The translations under genes were made by a program, and so were the position numbers. A DNA stretch of 38,492 nucleotides, from the IMG/VR virus record IMGVR_UViG_3300047564_001292, positions 1 to 38,492 of that record. One strand, 5' to 3'. Below are positions 4,235 to 36,576 of the stretch, piece after piece. The stretch is from a virus. How positions within the stretch are numbered: position 1 is the first letter of the stretch; every line of letters begins with the position of its first letter. The notes below the pieces were generated by a model. That model was not told the DNA's origin, ran no database searches, and saw only the letters and a program-made list of their open reading frames with translations.

Positions 4235-5236
4235 ATGTTTGAATATTACTATCACGAAATATTTCGAAGAACTATAGTTTCATTCGGAACATTATTTAAT
4301 AACATATCAATTAAGCATTTTAATGATGCGGGAAATGTAACCTCAGTAATTAAAGTTCCTCTAGCATATGGTCCCACACAGAAATTTCTAGCAAGGTTAG
4401 AACAACAACCTAATCTGAATGCACCTGTTCAAATGTCTCTTCCAAGAATGTCATTTGAATTTGTTGGACTTTCTTATGATGCCGGTAGAAAATTAACAAC
4501 TACTCAAACATTTTTAACTTCCTCCACTGAAGATAAAACAGATATTAAAAAAGCATATATGCCAGTTCCATATAATATGGATTTTGAACTGAGTATAATG
4601 TGCAAAATAAATGATGATATGCTGCAGATAATTGAGCAGATTTTACCATATTTTCAACCATCATATAATCTAACAGTTGATCTAGTTAAAACAATTGGAG
4701 AAAAAAGAGATATTCCAATTGTTTTAGAAAATATTAGTATGGATGATACCTACGAAGGTGATTTTAATACTAGAAGAGCATTAATTTATACTCTTAGATT
4801 TACTGCAAAAACTTACCTGTTTGGTCCTATTGTTTCTGGCGTATCCAAAGATATCATCAAAAAGGTTACTGTTGGTCTTGTTGCTGGAGATTCTCGCTCA
4901 ACCGCAAGAGATCTTACATATTCAGTTGAACCAGTTGCTACAACTAGTTATAGTGATAGTTCAATTACTACATTATCTCAAAATATTGGACCAACAGATT
5001 CTTCAATAACTGTAGACAATTCATCTTCAATTCCAGCACAATCTCACATTGTTCTAAATGATGAAACAATGCAGGTAACTAAAAAGGTTGGAAATGTTTT
5101 GACCGTGGTTAGAGGTTCTTACGGAACCCCAATATTAGATCACGTTTCTGGAACCCCAATTAAATTAATTACAGAAACTGATAATTCACTCATCGAATTT
5201 GGAGATGATTTTGGATTTAGTGGATCTTCATTTTGA
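4235..5236 (+). CDS. 15: gp15, tail sheath stabiliser / tail completion protein
   Basis: The N-terminus (MFEYYYHEIFRRTIVSFGTL) followed by FNDAGNVTSVIKVPLAYGP and PRMSFEFVGLSYDAGRK is the recognisable cyanophage form of T4 gp15, the terminator hexamer that caps the tail and contacts the neck. T4 gp15 is 272 aa; here 333 residues are predicted. The excess is C-terminal (about residues 245-333): a beta module with SIPAQSHIVLNDETMQVT and NVLTVVRGSYGT, resembling one in the first structural gene of the window. An AAGAGG ribosome site lies 8 nt before the ATG. The order 13-14-15-16 supports the call. Confidence 0.9.
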   Translation: MFEYYYHEIFRRTIVSFGTLFNNISIKHFNDAGNVTSVIKVPLAYGPTQKFLARLEQQPNLNAPVQMSLPRMSFEFVGLSYDAGRKLTTTQTFLTSSTEDKTDIKKAYMPVPYNMDFELSIMCKINDDMLQIIEQILPYFQPSYNLTVDLVKTIGEKRDIPIVLENISMDDTYEGDFNTRRALIYTLRFTAKTYLFGPIVSGVSKDIIKKVTVGLVAGDSRSTARDLTYSVEPVATTSYSDSSITTLSQNIGPTDSSITVDNSSSIPAQSHIVLNDETMQVTKKVGNVLTVVRGSYGTPILDHVSGTPIKLITETDNSLIEFGDDFGFSGSSF

Positions 5237-5242
5237 TTTTTT

Positions 5243-5689
5243 ATGGATAAAGACTATAATAAGTTAGATGATATTTTTAATGTATCTGGAGAAATAATTC
5301 ATAAAACCTCAGAAGAAGACTCTTCGATCATCCCTAAGGTGGTTGAAGGTAACTCCGATCAAAGAAATATTGACTTAAAAAATGATTATGAATATACAAG
5401 AGGAACGATATATTCTCTGGTAGAAAAGGGTCAGGAATTGATCAATGGAATACTTGAAGTTGCACAAGAAACAGAATCTGCAAGAGCATATGAAGTTGCG
5501 GGGCAGTTGATTAAAAGTGTATCTGATGCTACAGATAAATTAATCAATCTCCACAAGAACTTGAAAGATATTGAAGAGGTTAAGCAGGCTGGTCCTACAA
5601 ATGTTACTAATGCTCTTTTCGTAGGTTCGACAGCAGAATTGTCAAAACTTTTAAAATCTCAAAGGAAAGAAAATTCAGAAGATAAATAG
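5243..5689 (+). CDS. 16: gp16, terminase small subunit
   Basis: A 148-residue, mostly helical, charged protein (T4 gp16 is 164 aa). An acidic N-terminal segment is followed by NDYEYTRGTIYSLVEKGQEL, a helix pair ending in DKLINLHKNL, and a C-terminal NVTNALFVGSTAELSKLLK. These features match the cyanophage small terminase, which forms a ring, recognises viral DNA and stimulates the ATPase of gp17. Its position after gp15 agrees. The ATG follows gp15 by 6 nt in a T-rich stretch with no clear Shine-Dalgarno, so translation may be coupled to gp15. Unlike T4, gp17 does not follow; it lies about 32 kb downstream. Confidence 0.88.
   Translation: MDKDYNKLDDIFNVSGEIIHKTSEEDSSIIPKVVEGNSDQRNIDLKNDYEYTRGTIYSLVEKGQELINGILEVAQETESARAYEVAGQLIKSVSDATDKLINLHKNLKDIEEVKQAGPTNVTNALFVGSTAELSKLLKSQRKENSEDK
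5681..5688 (+). promoter_or_regulatory. Late promoter-like octamer GATAAATA
   Basis: GATAAATA overlaps the gp16 stop codon and lies 20 nt before the next start at 5709. It fits the T4/cyanomyovirus late promoter NATAAATA, and would launch the accessory block separately from the neck operon. AT-rich sequence makes chance matches possible. Confidence 0.5.
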
Positions 5690-5708
5690 TTAAAAATATT
5701 TTATTCCA

Positions 5709-6050
5709 ATGGCAGTTGCTGAAATTAACAGTTTAACTATCGAAAGAGGGACTGATTTTGAAGCGACTTTTAAAATTTTAGAAGCAGATTCATCTCCAGT
5801 AACTCTTTCTTATTATACTGGGATTTCTAAAATAAGAAAATATCCCTCCTCACCCACATATCATTCCTTTACGGTCGGTATTACAACTGCAACTGGTGAG
5901 GTAAATATTTCTATGGGGCAAACTACTACCCGTCTATTAACTCCTGGTAGAAATTACTTTGATATTATCATTATTAGTCCAGATATTTCTGATAATATGA
6001 CGACAAAAGTAGTTGAAGGGACAATTATTGTTTCGGAGAGTAGTTACTAA
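5709..6050 (+). CDS. Small beta-rich virion protein (113 aa)
   Basis: A 113-residue protein beginning MAVAEINSLTIERGTDFEA, with alternating hydrophobic strands and a C-terminal segment TPGRNYFDIIIISPDIS then VVEGTIIVSES. The layout (an early RGTDF motif, then a compact beta sandwich ending in a conserved G-x-I strand) recalls small N-terminal domains of phage baseplate or fibre-attachment proteins. No family is firmly recognised. It lies first in the accessory block after gp16 and its TAA overlaps the next ATG (TAATG), so the two products are probably made together and may act together. A structural role is inferred from position. Confidence 0.65.
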   Translation: MAVAEINSLTIERGTDFEATFKILEADSSPVTLSYYTGISKIRKYPSSPTYHSFTVGITTATGEVNISMGQTTTRLLTPGRNYFDIIIISPDISDNMTTKVVEGTIIVSESSY

Positions 6051-6361
6051 TGGCAGAATTTAATATAAAACTTAGTTCAAAGCCAAAATTCAAAGTCGTT
6101 GCTACTACTGGGGGTGTTCAAGTGCCAGCAAGATTTCAGGATCTAATAGATTTTGACCCTACTGATAAAAATGACAAATACGTTATAATGTATAATGGAG
6201 CAACTGGAAAATATCATTTAGTTAATCCAGATGAAGTTCTAAATGCTGCTGCATCTACAGAAACATTGCAACCGGGATTGGTTGGATTTGCAACTGCGTT
6301 CTTAGACAGGGTAGATATTGATTTAGATAATAGAATTGATGTTGATGCCGGAAGTTTCTAA
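6050..6361 (+). CDS. Small virion-associated protein with VDAGSF C-terminus (103 aa)
   Basis: A 103-residue protein starting MAEFNIKLSSKPKFKVVATT. Its middle (DKYVIMYNGATGKYHLVNPDE) and end (VDIDLDNRIDVDAGSF) look like the beta-rich peptide-like proteins that accompany fibre genes in cyanophages. Its last residues, VDAGSF, closely resemble the end of the following 519-aa fibre-like protein (VDGGSFT), suggesting a shared C-terminal docking or trimerisation tail. It overlaps the preceding gene by one base. A 107-nt gap with a late promoter octamer follows. I do not recognise a specific function. Confidence 0.65.
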   Translation: MAEFNIKLSSKPKFKVVATTGGVQVPARFQDLIDFDPTDKNDKYVIMYNGATGKYHLVNPDEVLNAAASTETLQPGLVGFATAFLDRVDIDLDNRIDVDAGSF

Positions 6362-6366
6362 ATTTT

Positions 6367-6374
6367 TATAAATA
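6367..6374 (+). promoter_or_regulatory. Late promoter, exact TATAAATA
   Basis: An exact copy of the T4 late promoter octamer lies in the 107-nt gap, 94 nt before the fibre gene start at 6469. It is followed by a long AT-rich leader containing a small hairpin (ACTTGA, loop TTA, TCAAGT at 6430-6444) upstream of the GAGG ribosome site at 6460-6463. Confidence 0.65.
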
Positions 6375-6468
6375 AATACATATGGTGTTAAATTTATATA
6401 ATATTAATAATATTTTTGGTGTGGGTTTGACTTGATTATCAAGTTTGTATCTTTACATAGAGGAAAAA

Positions 6469-8028
6469 ATGCCAGCACCCGCACCTACAATTCAACTTAA
6501 AAGAGGTCTTTTCGTAGATCTACCTGGTCTTAAGGCAGGTGAACCAGGATTTACTACGGATACCAATGATCTGTATATTGGTATCAATAGCACAACTCAG
6601 GATAATAAGTTCTTTGGCAGTTCTAGATACTGGGAAAGAGAGAACAATTCAAACAATACTTCTGCTGTTTTAAAACTATATAACCCAGCTGGTAGCGGAA
6701 GTATTAATTTAAATGCACCAGTGGGCCATTCTGGTGTCACAACTTATACTCTCCCTTCAGTTGCTCCTGTAGGAACAGGACACTTTTTAACTGCTGATGC
6801 CAACGGCGTTCTTTCTTGGGAAAGTGTTAGCGCATCGGCAACATTTAGTAATGCCAATTTAACTGGAATTACTACAATTGCATATATTGATGGAACAGAT
6901 GCTACTTTCACTGGAATTGTAACTTCATCTTCTTTCTATGTTGATACCACCAAGGTTCTTTCAACAGAAGGTGGTCTAGTTACTCTTTCTGGAATTGCAA
7001 CAATTGATTCTACAACTAAGTCAACTTTAGAGTCTATTCTAAGTCTTGACCCCAATGATTTCGATACTCTTAATGTAACTGGTATTGGAACATTTGGTGG
7101 TCTTCTTGATGCTAATGCTGGTTTAGATGTTACTGGTCACACTGAACTCGGTGACCTAAATGTAACTGGAGTTGCAACATTCACTAGCGCAATTAATGCA
7201 GATCTCTCAGGAAATGCTGGAACTGCAACTTCCCTTGCTAATGCTAGAGATTTTGACATTAGCGGATCTTTTGTAACTGCAACTGCGGTTTCTTTTGACG
7301 GAACAGGTAATGTTTCATTAGCGGCAACAATCGCTCCAAACTCAATTACACTTGGAACTTACACTTCAGGTGATTATGTTGCATCATTCACCGCAGGTGA
7401 TGGTTTAACAGGAGATGCTTCAGGAGCAGGTTCAACTCCAACACTTTCAGTTAATGTTGGTGCTGGTATCACTATTGCATCTGACAATGTTGCTTTCAAA
7501 AATGCTAGTTCTTTATCAGATAATACACTCCAAAAGTGGGATGACACTAATGAGCAATTAGTCAATTCCATCATTAGTGATAATGGAACTACTGCTACTG
7601 TTACTGGTGGATTAACTGTTACTGGTGATTTAACAATCAACGGAACAACAACTCAAGTTAATACTACTGAGTTGACTGTTTATGACAGAACTATTACCCT
7701 CGGTATTCAGACTGGATCAACTCCAGTTGATACAAGCTGGGATCTTGGAGTTCTGATGAATTATGGTGATGCAGGAGTTGCTAAGACTGCTGGTTTTGTT
7801 TGGGATTTTGGAACTAAGAGATTCCAATTTGCTTCTAATGCAGACAATCCTGCGGTCGGTGTTAATACAACAACTCCAGATATTACAGTTTCTGATTTTG
7901 CTTCTATTGAAGTTGGGGGTCTTTGGATTAACAATGGCTGTTCAAGTGGCACTAAAGAGATTATTGGATGCACCAACTCAGAATTGCATCTAATGAATAT
8001 AATTGTTGATGGTGGAAGTTTCACCTGA
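6469..8028 (+). CDS. Tail fibre-like virion protein with tropism-determinant-type N-terminus
   Basis: The start is placed at the ATG at 6469, preceded by AGAGGAAAAA, rather than an in-frame TTG 24 nt upstream; the product is 519 aa. The N-terminus (IQLKRGLFVDLPGLKAGEPG, then FTTDTNDLYIGI) matches the pattern of the major-tropism-determinant N-terminal domain seen at the front of many phage fibres. The rest is repetitive beta structure (units such as GIGTFGGLLDANAGLDVTG and NVTGVATFTSAINADLSGNA), then a NGTTTQVNTTELTVYDRTIT module that recurs in both collagen-like fibres of this window. It ends in VDGGSFT. A strong terminator follows. The role is probably receptor-facing or peripheral baseplate fibre; the precise virion location is unknown. 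Confidence 0.75.
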   Translation: MPAPAPTIQLKRGLFVDLPGLKAGEPGFTTDTNDLYIGINSTTQDNKFFGSSRYWERENNSNNTSAVLKLYNPAGSGSINLNAPVGHSGVTTYTLPSVAPVGTGHFLTADANGVLSWESVSASATFSNANLTGITTIAYIDGTDATFTGIVTSSSFYVDTTKVLSTEGGLVTLSGIATIDSTTKSTLESILSLDPNDFDTLNVTGIGTFGGLLDANAGLDVTGHTELGDLNVTGVATFTSAINADLSGNAGTATSLANARDFDISGSFVTATAVSFDGTGNVSLAATIAPNSITLGTYTSGDYVASFTAGDGLTGDASGAGSTPTLSVNVGAGITIASDNVAFKNASSLSDNTLQKWDDTNEQLVNSIISDNGTTATVTGGLTVTGDLTINGTTTQVNTTELTVYDRTITLGIQTGSTPVDTSWDLGVLMNYGDAGVAKTAGFVWDFGTKRFQFASNADNPAVGVNTTTPDITVSDFASIEVGGLWINNGCSSGTKEIIGCTNSELHLMNIIVDGGSFT

Positions 8029-8050
8029 TAATTAAATAATACATTTCTAA

Positions 8051-8080
8051 ATAGGGGGGTATATACCCCCCTATTTTTTT
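8051..8080 (+). terminator. Rho-independent terminator, perfect 24-nt palindrome plus T-tract
   Basis: The half-site ATAGGGGGGTAT (8051-8062) is followed directly by its exact reverse complement (8063-8074), giving a stem with six G-C pairs, and then a T-run through 8080. This is the strongest terminator in the window and should end transcription of the fibre gene. The next ORF starts at the very next base (8081). Confidence 0.9.
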
Positions 8081-8272
8081 ATGAATGAAGAAGATTATAA
8101 AGCAGTAATTGCTTCATACCAACAAAAAGCATTTGAATTGTTCAATCAAAATATTGTTTTAGAAACTCAGATTAGTAGTTTGAGAAAAACTGTTGAAACT
8201 TTGACGATTGAAAATGAAAAATTAAAAAAAGTTAAAAAACCCACTAAGCAAGATGCCGGAGACTTTGTTTGA
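8081..8272 (+). CDS. Small coiled-coil protein (63 aa) between two palindromes
   Basis: A 63-residue, strongly helical protein: MNEEDYKAVIASYQQKAFEL, then a leucine-zipper-like stretch (ETQISSLRKTVETLTIENEK) and a lysine-rich end. Its ATG abuts the T-tract of the upstream terminator, so there is no room for a normal ribosome-binding site and the hairpin lies directly before the start codon. A second perfect 24-nt palindrome lies 36 nt after its stop. Similar short coiled-coil proteins accompany fibre genes in T4-like phages (assembly chaperones or trimerisation partners), but this assignment is inference. Codon use and frame are consistent with real coding. Confidence 0.6.
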   Translation: MNEEDYKAVIASYQQKAFELFNQNIVLETQISSLRKTVETLTIENEKLKKVKKPTKQDAGDFV

Positions 8273-8296
8273 TTATTACTTTGCATTTAAATAATA

Positions 8297-8304
8297 CATA
8301 AATA
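8297..8304 (+). promoter_or_regulatory. Late promoter-like octamer CATAAATA
   Basis: CATAAATA lies 57 nt before the beta-helix gene at 8362 and just ahead of the 8309-8332 palindrome, so the palindrome would form at the 5' end of the transcript. Confidence 0.5.
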
Positions 8305-8308
8305 ATAA

Positions 8309-8332
8309 AAAACCTTTTATATAAAAGGTTTT
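8309..8332. terminator. Perfect 24-nt AT-rich palindrome, possible bidirectional terminator
   Basis: The half-site AAAACCTTTTAT (8309-8320) is followed by its exact reverse complement (8321-8332). The stem is AT-rich and the trailing T-run is only four bases, so termination is likely weaker than at 8051-8080. It could equally be a 5' leader hairpin of the next gene, because a late promoter octamer sits immediately upstream. Confidence 0.6.
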
Positions 8333-8361
8333 ACGGTAAATACCATTTATGGGGTTAGTGA

Positions 8362-10716
8362 ATGGCAGCACCTATAATTAGGATTAAAAGATCTTCAGTT
8401 CCCGGAAAACGCCCTTCAGTAGAGCAACTTCCATCGGGGGAACTCGCTTTAAATACTTATGATGCTGAATTATTTGTAAGAAGAGAGCGTTCTGGAATAG
8501 GCACTGATGTTGTAAGAGTCGGTGCTGGAGCAACAGTAACAAATATTTTATATGTCACAAAAGATGGAAGCGATACAAACACAGGAAAAAAACTTGGAGA
8601 CGCAAAGGCAACCATCAAAGGAGCGATCTCAGCAGCAACAGAAGGAACAGTTATTAAAGTTTCTGCTGGATCTTATGTAGAAAATAATCCCATTGAGCTG
8701 CTGCCTCAGGTTAGTATAGTTGGAGATAGTTTAAGAGAAGTATCAGTTTCTCCTTTAAATTCTGGACAAGACTTATTTCATGTTGCTCCGGGAAATTATA
8801 TTACTGATATGTCCTTTACTGGGACTATGAACTCCGGTTCAGCAATTTGTGCATTTAACCCAAATACAGTTAGATATTTTGATCAATCACCTTACATAAG
8901 AAACTGTACCAATTTCATTCATAATAGCACTGGTCTAAAAATAGACGGTCAGCACGCTATTGGTAAACTTAAAAGTATAGTAATTGACTCATTTACTCAA
9001 TATAATCAAGGTGGTATTGGCGTTTCCATTACAAATGAAGGATATGCTCAGTTAGTTTCTTTATTCACGATTTGTAATGATGTTGCAGTTTTTTGTGGAA
9101 GTGGGGGTGCTTGTGATTTAACAAACTCAAACTCCTCTTTTGGTAACTATGCATTAGTTGCCGATGGAGTAGGTCCAAAAAAATATACTGGAATTGTTAC
9201 TAGTTCTCAATCTGTGAATAGTGACACTTTTGTGATTGATTTAAATGTACCGACATTAAATATAACTTCAGCATTTTATAATAATACAACTGGAATATTA
9301 ACAGCATATACTTCTTCTGCACATAAGTTTTCTGTTGGGATGGGAGTATCTATTGCTGGTCTTGGATTTACTTGCCAATCTGGGCCAGGAATTGTTACGT
9401 ATCCTTCAGGAAATCAGGGGGGTTATGTTTTTAGAGTAAATACTGTTGCTCCTGGTAGATATATTGATTCTTATAACTTAATACAAGCAAATAGACAAGA
9501 AATTATTGATACAGCATATGCGCAAATTGCAATATCACATCCGTTTTTTACAAATCCAAATCCCAATAAATGTAAAAGAGATATAGGGTATTTGGTCGAT
9601 GCAGTTTCTTTAGATGTTAGAGACTATACCGATGAGCAAACAATTAAATTTGTAAAAGCATATTTTGACAAATCTGGATTTTTAATCGTAAATGGACTTG
9701 ATGGAGAGACGCAAGAATCAATTACTGCATTTAATAAAGCTAGAGATTTAATGAAACTTGCGATTACTAATAATTTAACAGTAAAAGATCTTAGTATTAC
9801 CGCAGACCCAGCAACCGGATCAAATACAAGTCAATCATCTTGCTCAGATGTTAGAACATTTATTGACAATTTAGTTTCTATTGTAACAACTCCGATAGGT
9901 GAAGGTGATACGAGTTCTTTACCAGCAAATGTTTCTATGGCAAGCACTATTTTTAGTGCATATGTAGGAACTTCTACTTTACCCCACACTTATAATTCTG
10001 GAGGAACTGTAAAAATTGATGTTGTTAGACCTTTCGATGGGCAAGTAGTTTATTTTGGAGATCTTTATTATACTGTTGGCAGTATTTCAGTTTCTGCAGG
10101 GGGAACTGGTTATACTGGAAATGCAGATGTTACAATCTCACCACCAGATACTAATTGGGGAGTTCCTGCATCTGCTGTAGCGGAAGTTAAAAATGGATCA
10201 ATTGTTGGAATTGAAATGGTTTCTAGTGGTAGGGGATATAGTTATCCCCCATCAGTTTCAATAAGCTCACCTAATGTGGGAATAAATACAGCAACAGCTA
10301 CTGTTAATTTAGTTCCAACTTATTATGTAATTACTTCTTCTACTCCCATTTCCGCTGGTATATGCACTATTACATTGAGTGATAATGTTCCTTATGAGGT
10401 TGGAGTTGGTACTGCAGTTCCATTTTTTAAACAAAGTAGATTATTAGCTTCTGGACATTCTTTGGAGTATATTGGATCTGGAACTAATATTGATACGGCC
10501 CTTCCTTCAACGGGTGGAGTTCCCATTCAAGACCAGGAAGTTGATATGAGAAATGGTGGTCTTGTTGTTTTTACTTCGACAGATCAGTCTGGTAATTTTA
10601 GAATTGGTGATGGTGTTGTTGTTAATCAGCAAACTGGAACCATTTCTGGAACATTCTATTCTAAGAGTTTGTTTTCATCATTAACACCATTTATTCTAGC
10701 ATTAGGAGGAGAATAA
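8362..10716 (+). CDS. Large virion protein with beta-helix domain (784 aa)
   Basis: The N-terminus (IIRIKRSSVPGKRPSVEQLP then SGELALNTYDAELFVRR) is the short fibre N-terminal type common in cyanophages. From about residue 65 (YVTKDGSDTNTGKKLGDAKA) to about 290 the pattern is that of a right-handed pectate-lyase-like beta-helix, including KVSAGSYVENNPIEL and VSIVGDS. Around residues 375-480 a helical insert appears (ANRQEIIDTAYAQI, CKRDIGYLVDAVSLDVRD). Near residues 575-640 two GTGYT/GRGYSYPP units resemble the repeats in gp14. It ends SLTPFILALGGE. The catalytic residues of a true lyase cannot be judged by eye, so depolymerase activity is possible but unproven. GGAGGAG at its 3' end serves as ribosome site for the next gene. 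Confidence 0.8.
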   Translation: MAAPIIRIKRSSVPGKRPSVEQLPSGELALNTYDAELFVRRERSGIGTDVVRVGAGATVTNILYVTKDGSDTNTGKKLGDAKATIKGAISAATEGTVIKVSAGSYVENNPIELLPQVSIVGDSLREVSVSPLNSGQDLFHVAPGNYITDMSFTGTMNSGSAICAFNPNTVRYFDQSPYIRNCTNFIHNSTGLKIDGQHAIGKLKSIVIDSFTQYNQGGIGVSITNEGYAQLVSLFTICNDVAVFCGSGGACDLTNSNSSFGNYALVADGVGPKKYTGIVTSSQSVNSDTFVIDLNVPTLNITSAFYNNTTGILTAYTSSAHKFSVGMGVSIAGLGFTCQSGPGIVTYPSGNQGGYVFRVNTVAPGRYIDSYNLIQANRQEIIDTAYAQIAISHPFFTNPNPNKCKRDIGYLVDAVSLDVRDYTDEQTIKFVKAYFDKSGFLIVNGLDGETQESITAFNKARDLMKLAITNNLTVKDLSITADPATGSNTSQSSCSDVRTFIDNLVSIVTTPIGEGDTSSLPANVSMASTIFSAYVGTSTLPHTYNSGGTVKIDVVRPFDGQVVYFGDLYYTVGSISVSAGGTGYTGNADVTISPPDTNWGVPASAVAEVKNGSIVGIEMVSSGRGYSYPPSVSISSPNVGINTATATVNLVPTYYVITSSTPISAGICTITLSDNVPYEVGVGTAVPFFKQSRLLASGHSLEYIGSGTNIDTALPSTGGVPIQDQEVDMRNGGLVVFTSTDQSGNFRIGDGVVVNQQTGTISGTFYSKSLFSSLTPFILALGGE

Positions 10717-24772: not shown

Positions 24773-27700
24773 GTGGCATATTTAAGTACTTTACTTGGGG
24801 CTAATTTCACTGGAGCACAAGGTACTCAAGGTGTCCAGGGAAGGCAGGGAACTACTGGCACTCAAGGAGCAACAGGAACACAAGGACTTCAGGGAATTCA
24901 GGGATCTTTAGGTCCTCAAGGAATTCAGGGAATTACAGGATCTCAGGGAGCAACAGGAACCCAAGGTCTTCAGGGAATTCAGGGAACTATAGGTCCTCAG
25001 GGTATTCAGGGAACTATAGGATCTCAAGGTATTCAAGGACGTCAGGGTATTCAGGGAACTATAGGTCCTCAGGGTATTCAGGGAACTATAGGATCTCAAG
25101 GTATTCAAGGACGTCAGGGTATTCAGGGAACTACAGGATCTCAGGGAACTACAGGTGCAACTGGTGCGACTGGATCTCAAGGAACTACAGGAACTACTGG
25201 AACTACTGGTGCGACTGGATCTCAAGGAACTATAGGATCTCAAGGAACTGCAGGCGCGACTGGCGCGACTGGATCTCAGGGAACTGCAGGATCTCAAGGA
25301 ACTATAGGATCTCAGGGTATTCAAGGTGTTCAAGGTATTCAAGGACGTCAGGGTATTCAGGGAACCACAGGAACTACAGGTTCTCAAGGAACTACAGGAA
25401 CCACAGGAACTACAGGTTCTCAAGGAACTACAGGAACCCAAGGAACTACAGGAACCACAGGAACTACAGGTTCTCAAGGAACAACTGGATCTCAAGGAAC
25501 AACTGGATCTCAAGGTGTTCAGGGTCGTCAAGGGACTACAGGTGCATCAGGAGAAACTGGTGCTACTGGTGCTCAAGGAACTACAGGTTCTCAAGGAATC
25601 CAAGGAATTACAGGTCCAGTAGCAGGTTCCGCAAATCAAGTTGTATATAAAGACGGATCTAATAACCCAACAGGTTCTAGTAATTTAACTTTTAATGGAA
25701 CTGCACTTTATGCAAATCAAATTACTGGTCCAGCGGAACTTGTAATTGATCCAACGTCTATTGGAGATAATACTGGAGCAGTAAGAATTAAAGGTGATTT
25801 ATATGTTGATGGTTCAAACTTCATAGTCAATTCATCAACAATTGAGTTGGCAGATTTTGTGGTTGGTATTGCATCTACAGTAGCAACAAATGCACTTCTT
25901 GATGGAGCTGGTATTGGTATTGGATCCGTAGGAATTCGCAAGACAATTACTTGGAATAATACTGCAACCGCATTAACATCGAGCGAAGATTGGAATCTTG
26001 CTTCAGGTAAGCAATATAAGATTAATGGAACTTCGGTATTAACTTCAACAACACTAGGTTCTGGAGTTGTCAATTCATCTTTAACTTCCGTTGGAACATT
26101 AGGTCTATTAAATGTTACTGGTATTGTTACTGCATCTAGATTTGTTTCTAATGTGGCAACAGGAACTGCACCATTCACAGTCTCTTCAACGACTCTTGTA
26201 TCTAATTTAAATGCCGATTTACTTGATGGGTTAAATTCCGCATCGACAAACACAGCATCAACTATTGTAGCAAGAGATGCTTCAGGTAACTTTAGTGCTG
26301 GCACTATTAGTGCTTCGTTGACAGGTTCTGCTTCAAACAACGTGTTGAAAGCAGGCGACACGATGACAGGTCAATTGATTTCAACTCTTGCAAATAATAC
26401 TGCAACTGGTGGTGGTCAAATATACCTGAATGGGGCAAATGGAAATAGAATTGATTTTAATACAAATGGTGTTGCTGCTCCGACAACTACAACAAGAAGT
26501 GCTGGAACTAAGTTAGTTTTATGGCCAGGACTAAGTGCAACTAATGTTGATTATGCACTTGGTATTGATAGTTCTACTATGTGGTATTCTGTTGATACTA
26601 CTTCAGCACAATTTAAGTGGTTTGCAGGAACTAGTAATGTCGCCACTTTAACTGGCGCCGGAAACTTCAGTGCGACTGGAAGTATTACTGGAAATACAAT
26701 CGTAAAATCTGGAGGAACTTCGTCTCAGTTCTTAAAAGCAGATGGATCTGTAGATACTAATACCTATATTACTTCTGCTTCTGTAGGCAATGGAACTCTG
26801 TCTTTAGCAGTTTCCGGAACTGGTCTTTCTGGTTCAGCATCATTTACTGCAAACCAAAGTGGAAATACAACTTTTACAGTAACATCTAATGCAACTTCAG
26901 CAAACACAGCATCTGCAATAGTTGCTAGAGATGCTTCGGGTAACTTTACTGCGGGAACAATTACTGCAAATTTAACAGGAAATATAACAAATACAGTTAC
27001 AGGAACTAATTCAACTGCACTAGTTTATGGTAATATGGCAGATAACGACCAATTTAGAATTTTAATTGGCGGAACTGCTTCTAATGCTGGATATGTTGAA
27101 ATTGCAACAGCAGATGACGGAACTGAACCAATTTATGTAAGACAATATACGGGCGTATTTACAACACTTGCAAGAACTGCCACACTACTTGATGGAAGTG
27201 GAAATACTAGTTTTCCTGGCAGTGTTACAGGAAATACAATCGTAAAATCTGGAGGAACTTCTTCTCAGTTCCTAAAAGCAGATGGATCCGTTGATTCTAA
27301 TACTTATATTACTTCAGCTTCTGTAGGTAACGGAACTCTTACTTTAGGAGTTTCTGGAACTGGTCTTTCTGGTTCCGCATCATTTACCGCAAACCAAAGT
27401 GGTGCTACCACATTCACTGTAACTTCGAACGCGACTTCAGCAAACACAGCATCTGCAATAGTTGCTAGAGATGCTTCTGGAAACTTTACTGCTGGAACTA
27501 TTACTGCTACAAGTTTCTCAGGTTCCTTAGCAAACACATTAACTTTAAATACCTCAGGAACTGGATTATCTGGATCCACAACATTTAATAACTCTGGTGC
27601 AGCAACATTTACCGTAACATCTAACGCGACTTCTGCAAACACAGCATCTGCAATAGTTGCTAGAGATGCTTCCGGAAACTTTACTGCTGGAACTATTACT

Positions 27701-30043
27701 GCTGCAACTTCATTTGTAAAATCTGGAGGAACTTCATCTCAGTTCTTAAAAGCAGATGGTTCTGTTGACTCCAATGCTTACATTACTTCTGCTTCTGTAG
27801 GCAATGGAACTCTGACTTTAGCAGTTTCCGGAACTGGATTATCTGGATCTGCATCATTTACGGCAAACCAAAGTGGTGCGACAACATTCACAGTAACCTC
27901 TAATGCAACTAATGCAAATACAGCATCTGCAATAGTTGCTCGTGATGCTTCGGGTAACTTTAGTGCTGGCACAATATCAGCAGGATTATCCGCTTCTGCA
28001 GACGCGGCAATTGTCAATCAAAACAACGGAAACTCTGCTGCTTGGTATGGTAGAATTCTTTCTAAAAACTCAACCAGTGATAAAGCATCATTCTTAGGAA
28101 CTTATGGTAGTATTGCTGGAGTTTTTGCACATAATAATGCTCTAAGTGCTTGGACGGATTTATATGTGAATACCGTTGATGGTGGAAGCAATGGTGGTAC
28201 AGTAAGAATGCCCCCCTCCGTCTTAGTCAATGGAAGCCAAGTTTGGCACGCTGGTAATGATGGTGCAGGTAGTGGATTAGATGCCGATTTAATTGATGGT
28301 ATTAATTCCACTGGTTTATTCAATAATATGGGAGCTCTTCACTCTACAAGAAGTAGTTTTGATGCCACAACACCTTCTTATGATTTTGGTTTTAGATTTG
28401 TTCAAGGAAGCACCAATGGTCCAGGAACTTCTGGATCTCAATTCTATTCTTGGTATATTGGTCTAGGTTCTGAATATGCAGCGACTGGTGCTGGTTCTTA
28501 TGGAGCAATGTTTGCTGTTGATAGAAATGTCACCAACCCATATTTAACAGTTAGATATAATGAAGGAAATTCTTTCACTTCCTGGTATAAGATCAGAGCA
28601 GGTGCTGCGGACCAAGTAATAAATTCAGTTACCTTTAATAACGGTGGTGCTGGTGGTGCATCTGGTAGCACATTTAATGGAAGTGGTGCTTTAACAGTTT
28701 CTTATAACACAATCGGTGCATCTCCGTTAGCAGGTTCCACTAGTTTAACCACCACTGGTACTGTAACTACTGGTACTTGGTCTGGTTCTTTTGGTGCTGT
28801 ATCTGGTGCTAACTTAACTAGTCTTACTGCAGGAAACTTAAGTGGAACAATACCTTCAGCAGTATTAGGTAACTCAGTTCACTTCATTGGCACTACTTCT
28901 ATTGCACTAAACAGAGCATCTGCTGCTCAAACTTTAACTGGAGTAAATATTGATGGCAGTTCTGGTTCTTGTACTGGTAATGCTGCCACAGCAACTAGTG
29001 CCGACCAAATAGACGGAATTGCATTTAGAAATTCAAATAGCACATCAGCGATTAGTGCTCCAGATACATTAGATAGCAATGGAATTGGATATGTAACTAA
29101 TATATCACTTTATAGCCAAACTGACGGTGCTTTATATGCACAAGCATATAGTGCAGCTTGGCAACATCAGATATATGGAGATTATAGAACTGGTCAAATA
29201 GCAATAAGAGGTAAAAATAATGGAACTTGGCAGGCTTGGCGTAATGTTCTCGATAGCACTAATTACACTACATATGCTGCTGCAAGTAACCATACACACG
29301 GTAATATTACCAATGCTGGTGCTATTGGTTCTGTAGCAAACCTACCAATTATTACAACAACAAGTGGTGTATTAACTACTGGTTCATTTGGTTCAGCAGC
29401 AAATACTTTCTGTCAAGGTAATGATTCTCGTCTAAGTGATACTAGAAACACAACTAATAGCATTACGTTTAACAATGCTGGTGCTGGGGATGCCAGCGGA
29501 ACAACTTTCAATGGATCCACCGCAAGAACAATTTCATACAACACAATCGGCGCATCTCCGTTAGCAGGTTCCACTAGTTTAACTACAACTGGCACCGTAA
29601 CTAATGGTACTTGGTCTGGTACTTTTGGTGTCGTATCTGGTGCTAACTTAACTAATTTGACTGCAGGAAACTTAAGTGGAACAATACCTTCAGCAGTATT
29701 AGGTAACTCAGTTCACTTCATTGGTACTACTTCTATTGCACTCAATAGAGCATCTGCTTCACAAAGTTTAACTGGCGTAAGCATTGATGGTTCTTCAGGT
29801 TCTTGTACTGGCAACTCTTCTACTGCAACAACCTTACAAACAACAAGAACTATTTGGGGTCAAAACTTTAATGGTAGTGCCAATGTTTCTGGTGCATTGA
29901 CTGGAGTAACTAATATAACTGCTACTGGCAACATTGCTGCCGATGGTGCATTCCGTGCAGAGTCTTCAGACTCTACACAAAGATTTGATATTTACTATAA
30001 TGAGACTACTGATAGTCTTGATTTTGATTATCTCACCGCATAA
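24773..30043 (+). CDS. Second collagen-like long tail fibre (1756 aa)
   Basis: The start is a GTG at 24773 (AYLSTLLGANFTGAQ), preceded by AGGAACCGAAG. About residues 14-283 are Gly-X-Y repeats with the same [18 protein letters not shown] module as the giant fibre. The distal part is T4-fibre-like: NADLLDG, VARDASGNFTAGTITA and SGGTSSQFLKADGSVD units, VWHAGNDGAGSGLDADLIDG, and a 1200-1300 region with FRFVQGSTNGPG and YSWYIGLGSEYA. It ends ESSDSTQRFDIYYNETTDSL-DFDYLTA with no S74 chaperone, so folding may depend on the small proteins that follow. Two 367-nt repeats (offset 834 nt) lie near its end. It is most likely a long fibre subunit involved in host binding. Confidence 0.85.
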   Translation: MAYLSTLLGANFTGAQGTQGVQGRQGTTGTQGATGTQGLQGIQGSLGPQGIQGITGSQGATGTQGLQGIQGTIGPQGIQGTIGSQGIQGRQGIQGTIGPQGIQGTIGSQGIQGRQGIQGTTGSQGTTGATGATGSQGTTGTTGTTGATGSQGTIGSQGTAGATGATGSQGTAGSQGTIGSQGIQGVQGIQGRQGIQGTTGTTGSQGTTGTTGTTGSQGTTGTQGTTGTTGTTGSQGTTGSQGTTGSQGVQGRQGTTGASGETGATGAQGTTGSQGIQGITGPVAGSANQVVYKDGSNNPTGSSNLTFNGTALYANQITGPAELVIDPTSIGDNTGAVRIKGDLYVDGSNFIVNSSTIELADFVVGIASTVATNALLDGAGIGIGSVGIRKTITWNNTATALTSSEDWNLASGKQYKINGTSVLTSTTLGSGVVNSSLTSVGTLGLLNVTGIVTASRFVSNVATGTAPFTVSSTTLVSNLNADLLDGLNSASTNTASTIVARDASGNFSAGTISASLTGSASNNVLKAGDTMTGQLISTLANNTATGGGQIYLNGANGNRIDFNTNGVAAPTTTTRSAGTKLVLWPGLSATNVDYALGIDSSTMWYSVDTTSAQFKWFAGTSNVATLTGAGNFSATGSITGNTIVKSGGTSSQFLKADGSVDTNTYITSASVGNGTLSLAVSGTGLSGSASFTANQSGNTTFTVTSNATSANTASAIVARDASGNFTAGTITANLTGNITNTVTGTNSTALVYGNMADNDQFRILIGGTASNAGYVEIATADDGTEPIYVRQYTGVFTTLARTATLLDGSGNTSFPGSVTGNTIVKSGGTSSQFLKADGSVDSNTYITSASVGNGTLTLGVSGTGLSGSASFTANQSGATTFTVTSNATSANTASAIVARDASGNFTAGTITATSFSGSLANTLTLNTSGTGLSGSTTFNNSGAATFTVTSNATSANTASAIVARDASGNFTAGTITAATSFVKSGGTSSQFLKADGSVDSNAYITSASVGNGTLTLAVSGTGLSGSASFTANQSGATTFTVTSNATNANTASAIVARDASGNFSAGTISAGLSASADAAIVNQNNGNSAAWYGRILSKNSTSDKASFLGTYGSIAGVFAHNNALSAWTDLYVNTVDGGSNGGTVRMPPSVLVNGSQVWHAGNDGAGSGLDADLIDGINSTGLFNNMGALHSTRSSFDATTPSYDFGFRFVQGSTNGPGTSGSQFYSWYIGLGSEYAATGAGSYGAMFAVDRNVTNPYLTVRYNEGNSFTSWYKIRAGAADQVINSVTFNNGGAGGASGSTFNGSGALTVSYNTIGASPLAGSTSLTTTGTVTTGTWSGSFGAVSGANLTSLTAGNLSGTIPSAVLGNSVHFIGTTSIALNRASAAQTLTGVNIDGSSGSCTGNAATATSADQIDGIAFRNSNSTSAISAPDTLDSNGIGYVTNISLYSQTDGALYAQAYSAAWQHQIYGDYRTGQIAIRGKNNGTWQAWRNVLDSTNYTTYAAASNHTHGNITNAGAIGSVANLPIITTTSGVLTTGSFGSAANTFCQGNDSRLSDTRNTTNSITFNNAGAGDASGTTFNGSTARTISYNTIGASPLAGSTSLTTTGTVTNGTWSGTFGVVSGANLTNLTAGNLSGTIPSAVLGNSVHFIGTTSIALNRASASQSLTGVSIDGSSGSCTGNSSTATTLQTTRTIWGQNFNGSANVSGALTGVTNITATGNIAADGAFRAESSDSTQRFDIYYNETTDSLDFDYLTA
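24812..25621 (+). repeat. Collagen-like block of the second fibre (270 residues)
   Basis: A continuous Gly-X-Y run beginning GAQGTQGVQGRQ. It contains two identical adjacent 72-nt copies (24982-25053 and 25054-25125) and ends in the junction [16 protein letters not shown] shared with the giant fibre. Confidence 0.95.
26701..27972 (+). repeat. Repeated fibre shaft modules
   Basis: The module SGGTSSQFLKADGSVD followed by YITSASVGNGTL, GTGLSGSASFTANQSG and TASAIVARDASGNF starts near 26701, 27241 and 27714, with a half copy near 27541-27712. Synonymous differences separate the copies. Confidence 0.85.
28624..28990 (+). repeat. Copy A of a 367-nt intragenic direct repeat
   Basis: It encodes TIGASPLAGSTSLTTTGTV through SIALNRASAAQTLTGV and SGSCTGNAATA. 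Copy B lies exactly 834 nt downstream without net length change. Confidence 0.85.
29458..29824 (+). repeat. Copy B of the 367-nt intragenic direct repeat
   Basis: It encodes the same series (TIGASPLAGSTSLTTTGTV, then SIALNRASASQSLTGV) with scattered substitutions relative to copy A. Confidence 0.85.
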
Positions 30044-33137: not shown

Positions 33138-34124
33138 ATGACAAATTTTGTTAAACTTGCATTAGATAATGGTGGATCTATTAAACCCCTACTCATTAAT
33201 TCTAAAGATCTTTTAGGACCATCCCTCACAAATCCGTCAGTTCTTGTAGTTGATGATAAGATTTTAGTAAATATCAGAAACGTAAATTATACACTATATC
33301 ATTCGGAATTAAGCAAGTTTGAGCATTTGTGGGGTCCTCTATCATACATTCACCCCGAGAATGATATGCATTTGAGGACTACAAATTATATTGCAGAGTT
33401 GGATGAAAATTTAGATACAATTTATTACACAAAAATAGATACTTCTAAATTTGATACTTATCCACCACAATGGGATTTTGTTGGTCTTGAAGATTGTAGA
33501 TTAATCAATTGGGAAGACAAGATCTATGTTTGTGGCGTAAGAAGAGATCTAGATACAATCGGAACTGGGAGAATGGAACTCTCAGAACTCGAATTTGATG
33601 CGGGCGCAGTAAAAGAGGTTCTGAGGTATAGAATACCTGGGCCTCCACCAGATGATGAATATTGTATGAAGAATTGCACTCCAATCGAAGATATGCCATT
33701 TCATTTGATGAAGTGGACAAATCCAACTGCTTTGATGAAATTTAATATTGATGGAAGTCAAACAGAAGTCTTTGAAGTCAATTCTCGCGTCCCGATGCCA
33801 AAGGATATGAGAGGTGGATCTCAAGTAATCAAATATAATGGCGGTTATTTAACTCTAATTCACGAAACTGATTTATACAATTCAGAGCAAGGAAGAAAGG
33901 ACGCAACTTATCGTCATAGATTTGTTTGTTGGGATGGAAACTTTAAAAATCAAAGATTTTCTAAAGTATTCTCATTTTTAAATATGAAGATTGAGTTCTG
34001 CTGTGGACTTGCAGAATATAAAGATAGTTTTCTTATTACATTTGGCGCTTCAGATAATGCTGCTTATATCTTAAAAATTTCTAAATCATTTGTGGAGGAT
34101 TTTATCAATGAAGGAAGTAATTGA
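33138..34124 (+). CDS. GH130-like five-bladed propeller protein (328 aa)
   Basis: Repeated blade patterns are visible: NPSVLVVDDKILVNIRNVNY, GLEDCRLINWEDKIYVCGVR (residues 116-135), GGSQVIKYNGGYLTLIHE, and FCCGLAEYKDSFLITFGASD. The G-L-E-D-x-R-L motif corresponds to the acid-bearing signature of GH130 mannoside phosphorylases and related glycosidase-like propellers. Whether it is catalytic (phosphorolysis or hydrolysis of mannosides) or only glycan-binding cannot be told by eye. Its last 17 nt overlap the start of the methyltransferase fusion gene, whose ribosome site TGGAGGA lies inside this gene, so the two proteins are translationally linked. Confidence 0.65.
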   Translation: MTNFVKLALDNGGSIKPLLINSKDLLGPSLTNPSVLVVDDKILVNIRNVNYTLYHSELSKFEHLWGPLSYIHPENDMHLRTTNYIAELDENLDTIYYTKIDTSKFDTYPPQWDFVGLEDCRLINWEDKIYVCGVRRDLDTIGTGRMELSELEFDAGAVKEVLRYRIPGPPPDDEYCMKNCTPIEDMPFHLMKWTNPTALMKFNIDGSQTEVFEVNSRVPMPKDMRGGSQVIKYNGGYLTLIHETDLYNSEQGRKDATYRHRFVCWDGNFKNQRFSKVFSFLNMKIEFCCGLAEYKDSFLITFGASDNAAYILKISKSFVEDFINEGSN

Positions 34125-36576
34125 TTTTTCATTAGATACTGAGAATGGAGAAAAAAATTATACTCTTGCTCAATGGTATGAGAAGCAAGGACATACTGCG
34201 CCGGCACATACTTATTATTTGAGAGCAGCAGAAAGAACTGATGATAAAATTCTTGCTTACAAAGCATTATTAAGGGCATCTTTCTGTTATAAATCTCAAG
34301 GTTCTAGAGATGGAACTGAAAAGATTTTACTAGAAAATGCTCTGAATTTTATTCCAGAAAGACCTGAAGCATATTATTTTCTTTCATTGCTGTATGAAAG
34401 AAAGGCAGAATGGCAGAACTGCTACATTTATTCAAACTTAGGATTGCAGTGCTATTCTCCGGATATTGAAGATATTAATCTTCCAGAATATCCTGGAATG
34501 TATTCACTCATTTTCCAAAAAGCAGTTGCTGGATGGTGGTGGGGTAAAGGACCAGAGTCTAGAAAATTATTGTGGAAACTGGTCGATGAATATTGGAATG
34601 TTATGGACGAAAGATTTAAATATAGTGTTGAAAATAACATTTCAAGAATAGGTTCTGGTCCAAAGTCCCAAGATGCTGTTTTTTATTCAAAGGCAAATTA
34701 TAATAACCTAAGACATAAATTTAACGGATCTGAAAGTATTTCAGTAAATCACGCTCAAGCATTTCAAGACATTTTTGTCTTAACTATGCTAAACGGAAAG
34801 AGAAATGGAACATTTCTTGAAATAGGAGCATCTAAACCATTTGAAAGAAATAACACTGCTCTTCTAGAGAATACTTTTGGTTGGTCTGGTGTTGCAGTTG
34901 AACTTGATAAAGAATTTGCTACCTCATATGAATTGTTAAGACCTAATATAAAGGTCTTATGCCAAAATGCACTGCAGATTGATTATTCTGAATTATTAGA
35001 AGAAAATTATACTAAAAATGTAATCGATTATCTTCAATTAGATATTGAGCCTGCAAGGAATACTTATGAATGTATGCTCAAAATTCCGTTTGATAAGTAT
35101 AAATTTGCGGTCATTACTTATGAGCACGATGATTACATTGACATAACTCGCTCGTGTAAAAAGAAATCCAGAGAATTTTTAGAAGAAAGAGGATATGTTT
35201 TAGTCGTAAATGACGTATCAGTTGATGGCATTTCAACGTTTGAAGATTGGTGGGTGCATCCAGATTTAGTTGATCAGAATACCATTAACATTATGAGATC
35301 TGATTTCAATAAGATTACAAATATCGGAGAATATTTTTACTCTAAGAGATACTACGGTGAGTTTGATACTGACAAGTATATTAGAGAACATTATTTTCCA
35401 GATATGAATTATACTGGAGTTTTTGTTGACGTTGGGGCAGGTCCACCGACATTTATAAGTAACTCAAAGCACTTCAGGGATAGTGGATGGAGAACTATAT
35501 GCGTAGAACCAAATCCAAAATTTGCAAAACAGCATAAAGATGCTGGTAGTGAAGTATATGAATATGCTTGCTCAAATAAAGAAGGTAAGAGTAGTTTTAT
35601 TATTAACTACAATAATGATAATTGGTATTCAAAAGAAAATGATGGGGTTAGTTTTTCTTCTTTAGGTATTAGGTATAAAGGAGTTCCCGCTCACAATACA
35701 CAAGAAACTATTGAAGTTGAGACTATAAAGTTGAATACTTTACTGGAAAAAATTGATATAAATCGAGTAGATGTTCTTTCTATTGATACTGAGGGGTGGG
35801 AACTGGATGTATTAGATGGATTTGATCATATTAAGTATAATCCAAAAGTTGTTGTCCTAGAAAATTTTGAAAAAGTTTCAAAATATGAACAGTATATGAA
35901 TAGTATCGGATATAAAAAAGATTTTTCTTTGGGACATAATGAAATATATTCGAAGGAAAAATCTACCTCTACAATATCTGCAATATATACACCAACTTTC
36001 ACAAAGGCTAAAGGAACTTCTTGGATCGTAGATAACTTTTACGAAAATCCAGACGAAGTCCGAAAATTTGCTCTGAATATAGATTATTTTGAAGGAGGTA
36101 TTGGTAGAGGATTTATCGGCAGACGATCAAAAGAACAATATCTATTTTCAGGTCTTAAAGAAAGATTTGAGGAGATAATGGGTAAGAAAATTACCGGATG
36201 GGAAGAATATGAGATGAATGGTAGATTTCAGGTTGCTTGGGCAGGAGAACCTTTAGTATGGCATTGTGATAGTCAGCAATGGGGTGGAATGCTCTATCTA
36301 ACTCCAGAAGCACCATACCAATGTGGAACAACTTTGTATGCACATAAGAAGACTAGAGCAAGAACTTATTATGATCAAGGATGGGATGCTGCGTGGACAA
36401 ATGTTCCCGGAGATTGCCACCTCGACGGAACACCATTTGAACCTGTTGATGTTCTTGGGAATGTTTATAATCGTCTTGTAATTTTTGATGCAAGTTGTAT
36501 TCATTCTGCTTCAGAATACTTTGGAACAGTAATGGAAAATGCAAGAATGTGGCAAATGTTCTTCTTTGATACTTGA
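34108..36576 (+). CDS. Four-domain fusion: TPR-like, FkbM-like MTase, FkbM-like MTase, 2OG oxygenase-like
   Basis: The start is the ATG at 34108, with TGGAGGAT 10 nt upstream, not the earlier in-frame TTG; 822 aa. Residues about 10-150 are TPR-like helices (YYLRAAERTDDKILAYKALL, RPEAYYFLSLLYERKAEWQN). Residues about 215-360 carry a first SAM-binding fold (GTFLEIGASKPFERNN, VIDYLQLDIEP). Residues about 415-610 carry a second (VFVDVGAGPPTFISNS, CVEPNPKF, VDVLSIDTEGWELDVLDG) of FkbM type. Residues about 640-822 are DUF6445-like oxygenase (WHCDSQQWGGMLYLTPEAP with H719/D721, H799 in CIHSASEYFG, R813). A multifunctional glycan- or protein-tailoring enzyme is suggested; the substrate is unknown. 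Confidence 0.8.
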   Translation: MKEVIDFSLDTENGEKNYTLAQWYEKQGHTAPAHTYYLRAAERTDDKILAYKALLRASFCYKSQGSRDGTEKILLENALNFIPERPEAYYFLSLLYERKAEWQNCYIYSNLGLQCYSPDIEDINLPEYPGMYSLIFQKAVAGWWWGKGPESRKLLWKLVDEYWNVMDERFKYSVENNISRIGSGPKSQDAVFYSKANYNNLRHKFNGSESISVNHAQAFQDIFVLTMLNGKRNGTFLEIGASKPFERNNTALLENTFGWSGVAVELDKEFATSYELLRPNIKVLCQNALQIDYSELLEENYTKNVIDYLQLDIEPARNTYECMLKIPFDKYKFAVITYEHDDYIDITRSCKKKSREFLEERGYVLVVNDVSVDGISTFEDWWVHPDLVDQNTINIMRSDFNKITNIGEYFYSKRYYGEFDTDKYIREHYFPDMNYTGVFVDVGAGPPTFISNSKHFRDSGWRTICVEPNPKFAKQHKDAGSEVYEYACSNKEGKSSFIINYNNDNWYSKENDGVSFSSLGIRYKGVPAHNTQETIEVETIKLNTLLEKIDINRVDVLSIDTEGWELDVLDGFDHIKYNPKVVVLENFEKVSKYEQYMNSIGYKKDFSLGHNEIYSKEKSTSTISAIYTPTFTKAKGTSWIVDNFYENPDEVRKFALNIDYFEGGIGRGFIGRRSKEQYLFSGLKERFEEIMGKKITGWEEYEMNGRFQVAWAGEPLVWHCDSQQWGGMLYLTPEAPYQCGTTLYAHKKTRARTYYDQGWDAAWTNVPGDCHLDGTPFEPVDVLGNVYNRLVIFDASCIHSASEYFGTVMENARMWQMFFFDT

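Follow-up and report, generated by a model that had tools for sequence, protein, structure and literature searches.

We analyzed a 38,492-nucleotide stretch of viral DNA (IMG/VR virus record IMGVR_UViG_3300047564_001292, positions 1 to 38,492; hereafter, the window), and we consider it probable that an open reading frame (ORF) at positions 34108–36576 encodes a modular protein for glycan tailoring, belonging to a cyanophage family whose members work with a beta-mannoside-forming partner. The 822-residue product joins a TPR domain, two FkbM-like methyltransferases (MT1 and MT2) and a DUF6445 domain in one chain; this gene and the other window features located below lie on the plus strand. The proposal draws on the domains computed here, a conserved gene pair, the shuffling of domains among relatives, conserved residues of catalytic type, and the propeller fold of the partner, which is encoded by the overlapping upstream gene (33138–34124). 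T4-like genes for head, tail and terminase are present in the 38-kb record, its closest named relatives are Synechococcus phages, and a cyanobacterial host seems indicated by these T4-like, Kyanoviridae-type relatives.

The ORF begins with ATG and runs without an internal stop, as a sequence-only reading of the window had described it. Copies 100% and 97% identical occur in three other records (L004, L005 and L006), and the four-domain order is kept at ~70% identity in L007–L009. In the comparison with L006, the closest non-identical copy, the ratio of nonsynonymous to synonymous substitution rates (dN/dS) was 0.03–0.11 per domain, and purifying selection acts on all four domains. Mis-assembly or decay of the gene was considered and discarded on the strength of these copies in independent assemblies and of the purifying selection. 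Synonymous divergence (dS) between window positions 34108–36573 and L006:1930–4395 was uneven by domain (TPR, 0.34; MT1, 0.15; MT2, 0.12; DUF6445, 0.52), a spread that may come from recombination at domain borders.

The four domain calls of the sequence-only reading (TPR-like, two FkbM-like, DUF6445-like) were borne out by profile matches, by a model of the TPR domain and, for MT1, by its relatives. The TPR domain (residues 1–200; 34108–34707), the constant module of the family, matched TPR structures by profile at an expectation value (E) of 2e-25, with O-GlcNAc transferase among them, and its model gave a Z score of 17.4 to the TPR domain of LGN; in structure comparison it further resembled the TPR domains of O-GlcNAc transferase, of SPINDLY and of GT2 proteins from viruses. 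MT2 (residues 401–620; 35308–35967) matched the FkbM family PF05050 at E 1.3e-23, with 84.4 bits against a cut-off of 22.7, over residues 441–603 and profile positions 1–172 of 173, and its profile matched the Protein Data Bank (PDB) entry 2py6, "Methyltransferase FkbM", at E 0.004. MT1 (residues 201–400; 34708–35307) alone scored below the PF05050 cut-off in the window (17.1 versus 22.7 bits, E 0.006), and we therefore file it only as a member of the FkbM superfamily. The methyltransferase expected in residues 211–400 is nonetheless supported at that level: PF05050 was matched by 18 of 34 TPR-MT1 relatives (best E 4.5e-6, some above the cut-off), the MT1 and MT2 profiles aligned with each other (hhalign 95.8%, E 8e-9), pointing to homology of the two domains, and MT1 has a conserved acidic motif, DYLQLDxEP, in addition to its S-adenosylmethionine (SAM)-binding motif I. 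That motif, GTFLEIGAS (residues 234–242; 34807–34833), and its counterpart in MT2, VFVDVGAG (residues 438–445; 35419–35442), are conserved and lie where they had first been read. Standalone MT1 homologs occur in genomes of Paraburkholderia and Herbaspirillum.

The C-terminal domain (residues 636–821; 36013–36570) matched DUF6445 (PF20043) with 25.5 bits against a cut-off of 24 in the whole protein (E 1.5e-5) and with 31.6 bits as an isolated domain (E 2e-7), and it matched phrog_1644 at E 4e-33. PF20043 was matched by 22 of 22 DUF6445 members, one of which also gave a weak match to PF13640. The residues named earlier as an iron site were found in place and conserved across 23 dereplicated domains: H719-x-D721 (36262–36270), candidate iron ligands, at 100%, and both H799 (36502–36504), a candidate third ligand, and R813 (36544–36546), a candidate 2-oxoglutarate-binding arginine, at 96%. 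With this HxD...H triad and arginine, the domain is a probable 2-oxoglutarate/Fe(II) oxygenase, judged by its residues. A PDB sequence search with the DUF6445 profile returned chance matches only, and the C-terminal region of the full-length AlphaFold2 model had mostly a predicted local distance difference test (pLDDT) below 50, probably because the alignment mixed architectures; rows of the annotated-phage loci L001 and L002 were left out of the AlphaFold2 alignments. The label "minor coat protein" carried by phrog_1644 (matched at window positions 36013–36570), and also by a standalone relative in ACG-2014j, is likely a misleading annotation or else a sign of virion association.

The upstream gene encodes a 328-residue protein and overlaps the ORF by 17 nucleotides, and a Shine-Dalgarno-like GGAGG (34094–34098) lies inside it, 9 nucleotides before the ATG of the ORF. 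Its AlphaFold2 model is an all-beta, five-bladed propeller (pLDDT 88.7, predicted template modeling score 0.90) that matched beta-mannoside phosphorylases, a mannoside synthase and GDP-mannose-dependent Leishmania enzymes over almost the whole length. The best Z scores were 23.9 to RaMP1 (5ay9), 23.5 to MGP (3wau) and 18.2 to Leishmania MPT-2 (6q4z), with ranges of 20.7–23.9 for GH130 and 17.5–18.2 for Leishmania MPT enzymes, and 17.9 and lower for GH43, placing the protein in the GH130/GT108 fold. Identity to GH130/GT108 structures is only 10–16%, a PDB sequence search with the propeller profile gave chance matches only, and the match to the Pfam family Glyco_hydro_130 (PF04041) was weak (E 0.018, 14.4 bits versus a cut-off of 26); because of this score below the cut-off, we refer to a GH130/GT108-fold protein and do not file it as a GH130 member. 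GH130 and GT108 share a common fold and a common inverting mechanism (PMC8950772). Modeled in this way, the propeller is a candidate beta-mannosyltransferase or mannoside phosphorylase/synthase, in which D119, in an invariant GLEDxR segment, is a candidate catalytic aspartate only. The overlap, the GGAGG site and the fold match together uphold the translational coupling to a GH130-like propeller suggested by the sequence-only reading.

Two scans of viral contigs, one per gene, place this pair in a family. The 138 TPR-containing ORFs found were reduced to 66 complete ones, with architectures at contig ends excluded and a simple similarity ratio used for dereplication; domains were called with purpose-built profiles seeded by the window, and some ORF starts are possibly mis-set. 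Among the 66 dereplicated relatives there were 22 domain architectures, and the constants were the TPR domain and an upstream propeller gene for ~325 residues, mostly overlapping by a few nucleotides (8 most commonly). With the TPR protein as the query, the propeller lay upstream in 30 of 32 dereplicated relatives and was directly adjacent in 22; of the two remaining relatives, L042 also carries a propeller gene, which overlaps the called start. With the propeller as the query, the TPR protein lay downstream at 44 of 48 loci and was adjacent at 30. We keep the counts separate by direction because the query used for fetching partly shapes the conservation of the pair. Tandem propeller genes upstream of a single TPR protein (L019:4083–4979 and 5045–5953) suggest duplication of the partner. 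The pair was also found in three bacterial or archaeal bins (L144, L145 and L146, assigned to Woesearchaeota, Verrucomicrobia and Rhodobacteraceae); these may be phage contigs that were binned with cellular ones, and L146 may instead contain a Rhodobacteraceae phage.

What accompanies the TPR domain varies: MT1 alone, DUF6445 alone, one to three methyltransferases, radical SAM/SPASM domains, or glycosyltransferases. The commonest forms were TPR-MT1 (17), TPR-MT1-DUF6445 (11) and TPR-MT1 with an extension before the TPR domain (9), while the four-domain form of the window occurred four times after dereplication and other forms add a third methyltransferase. Added domains identified by Pfam were GT2, GT25, GT17, WavE, Methyltransf_24, FkbM and radical SAM/SPASM, and GT11 was also among the companions. 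Positions follow a pattern, with MT1 immediately after the TPR domain in all TPR fusions that have it, DUF6445 last wherever it is fused to a TPR protein, and glycosyltransferase domains mostly N-terminal of the TPR domain. Three loci carry a radical SAM/SPASM domain fused C-terminally to a TPR methyltransferase protein (L002:5968–8118, L020:5980–8859 and L041:756–2828), and L024 encodes two TPR proteins, TPR-DUF6445 (5962–7155) and TPR-MT1 (7588–8841), with a DUF454 gene between them, so that the domains are spread over two scaffolds. The sequence-only reading had held that such domains are usually separate genes, which is correct in part, but fusion is frequent in this family and the survey found both fused and split forms. 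Because the relatives differ in their domains, neither the ordered modification of one substrate by two methyltransferases and a hydroxylase that it proposed nor a fixed scheme of two methylations followed by hydroxylation applies to the family as a rule; what is ordered is the place of the domains in the chain.

The shuffling is recent, and near-identical phages differ by one domain. The GT25-MT24-TPR proteins of L104 (1840–4305) and L098 (4238–6127) are 94.7% identical over 625 shared residues, with propellers 97% identical, and only L104 has a DUF6445 domain, fused straight to the end of the TPR domain. L112 and L109, with propellers 100% and DUF6445 domains 99% identical, differ by one methyltransferase domain, and L016 and L017, with propellers 81% identical, have fused and split forms, respectively.

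Taken as a mechanism, these observations suggest an evolving kit, a TPR protein with varying enzyme parts that decorates a sugar chain on virus or host. The constant TPR domain would be a docking scaffold, whose attached enzymes phages acquire, lose and exchange, and would bring the enzymes together with the acceptor or with the propeller; docking of the propeller enzyme is just as plausible a role as holding the substrate. The coupled propeller would probably add beta-mannose to the acceptor, from GDP-mannose or mannose-1-phosphate as donor, MT1 and MT2 would O-methylate sugar hydroxyls, and DUF6445 would then hydroxylate or oxidize the product. These reactions, mannose as the sugar, TPR docking and the acceptor are all inferred. 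Because the companion enzymes are mostly sugar enzymes and the partner has the fold described above, a glycan is the most likely substrate class, in agreement with the sequence-only reading. Support for mannose comes from L049-type loci, where the pair has as its neighbor a cupin of the mannose-6-phosphate isomerase type, whose fusion to a cytidylyltransferase-like domain (L049:9506–10261) suggests a phage-encoded supply of activated mannose, and genes of GDP-mannose and GDP-fucose pathways have been published for cyanophages (PMC9602691, PMC10611076).

For the acceptor, we lean slightly and tentatively toward a phage structural protein, a collagen-like fiber, over host surface polysaccharide. 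The candidate in the window is a collagen-like tail-fiber gene (24773–30043; matches to tail-fiber and collagen-like PHROGs) with 90 G-X-X triplets, in which threonine makes up 36% of X and 33% of Y, glutamine makes up 54% of Y, proline occurs four times in X and never in Y, and lysine is absent. With their many threonines and almost no proline or lysine, these repeats would be a better match for O-glycosylation than for hydroxylation of the classical prolyl or lysyl kind. Among the matches listed, collagen-like proteins were present in 21 of 21 records tested (the contigs being partial), the collagen-like gene nearest the pair lay at a median of 4.6 kb (20 records), and a rough test against random placement gave a combined probability of 3e-4 (15 records after removal of near-duplicates), the pair and these genes lying close together more often than predicted. 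It is conceivable, with less confidence than we attach to either acceptor class taken broadly, that a line of cyanophage virion glycosylation exists in which the constant propeller and TPR domain, with cassette modules, vary a methylated and oxidized glycan on collagen-like fibers; if so, differences in fiber glycans between lineages would change adsorption or recognition. Searches of the window for RNA families and tRNAs found none, and late-promoter-like TATAAATA sites were too few for use.

Several points weigh against the proposed glycan-tailoring role. The proximity of collagen-like genes may mean no more than that both lie in one late or host-recognition region, late genes being clustered in any case. 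FkbM enzymes accept several substrate types, radical SAM/SPASM partners often have peptides as substrates, and GH130-fold proteins also break down mannosides. DUF6445 is a family without an assigned function, for which a double-stranded beta-helix is a putative fold, and an hhalign comparison of the domain with three cyanophage 2-oxoglutarate oxygenases was uninformative.

The target could instead be a host surface polysaccharide, O-antigen or capsule, changed during infection, for example against superinfection; the propeller would mannosylate, and the TPR protein methylate or oxidize, cytoplasmic glycan intermediates before export. We regard this as a possible but rather doubtful account. 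Glycosyltransferases in the host-recognition region of related pelagimyophages have been read as O-chain modifiers (PMC7029224), and of the multidomain enzymes of Klebsiella O-antigen systems some have methyltransferase termini and one has a TPR-like bundle (PMC11231755); to these can be added the lipopolysaccharide-type GT25 and WavE domains fused to the TPR domain and the Paraburkholderia and Herbaspirillum MT1 homologs mentioned above. The window genes, by comparison, lie between the collagen-like fiber gene and the terminase, in a structural region, and membrane export or polymerase proteins were not seen by the pair, though those of the host could serve. Because a crude hydropathy scan for polytopic membrane proteins found none among 686 ORFs in 78 loci, we saw no flippase, polymerase or oligosaccharyltransferase nearby.

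Direct hydroxylation and methylation of amino-acid side chains in a phage protein, with the propeller a mere neighbor or a later glycosylation step, seems to us improbable. TPR scaffolds bind peptides, radical SAM/SPASM domains are fused in some relatives, and 2-oxoglutarate oxygenases hydroxylate proteins, including collagens, but sugar is indicated by the near-universal propeller and by the glycosyltransferases that many relatives carry on the same TPR domain, and the collagen repeats of the window offer nearly no proline or lysine. Least credible by far is a lack of any joint function, with the gene fused by chance, mis-assembled or in decay. Fused and split forms do coexist (L016 versus L017) and architectures change fast; this explanation is largely refuted by the independent copies at three levels of identity and the purifying selection, and the motifs are intact.

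The family shows that the phage host-recognition region evolves by single enzyme domains within one protein, built around a core of two genes that stays fixed, and not by tail-fiber swaps alone. If the target is the virion, these proteins would systematically diversify the sugar coats of viruses that are abundant in water, and some cyanophage oxygenases and FkbM methyltransferases that are now unassigned would be explained. Both members of the constant pair are small and soluble and lend themselves to direct tests.

Neither the propeller-TPR pair nor the shuffling of its domains turned up in the open-access literature searched, and the nearest known proteins share parts of it. Uncultured Caudovirales proteins annotated "Methyltransferase FkbM" (for example, UniProt A0A6J5KVN0; Foldseek E 4e-22) have the same TPR-MT1 core by model comparison, but at ~415 residues they leave no room for MT2 or DUF6445, and their annotation is of domains only. 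Synechococcus phage S-SCSM2R (SSCSM2R_194-195) and phage DSL-LC02 have the same propeller followed by a TPR protein, which in S-SCSM2R is TPR-MT1-DUF6445 without MT2 and in DSL-LC02 is TPR-FkbM-radical SAM, DUF6445 there being encoded by a gene of its own; the annotations in their records are CcmH/NrfG, "MGP protein", FkbM and beta-mannosyltransferase, and these records state no role for the genes together. Bacteria are known to have multidomain glycan enzymes that include methyltransferases and helical spacers (PMC11231755). Among them, polymerase-terminators of the WbdD/WbbB type, together with the Actinobacillus pleuropneumoniae capsule multienzyme 8qoy, resemble the protein described here in that a single chain with a helical scaffold combines several enzymes of glycan assembly, methyltransferases among them. 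Those bacterial enzymes act on capsule or O-antigen, many have coiled-coil spacers, and the literature searched describes no DUF6445 domain and no partner of GH130 fold for any of them. With GH130 mannoside phosphorylases and GT108 mannosyltransferase-phosphorylases, the partner has in common the five-bladed propeller fold at the low identity given above. O-GlcNAc transferase and SPINDLY offer the structural parallel for the TPR domain, placed next to a sugar-acting catalytic region; unlike their GT41 region, the catalytic parts here are methyltransferases and DUF6445.

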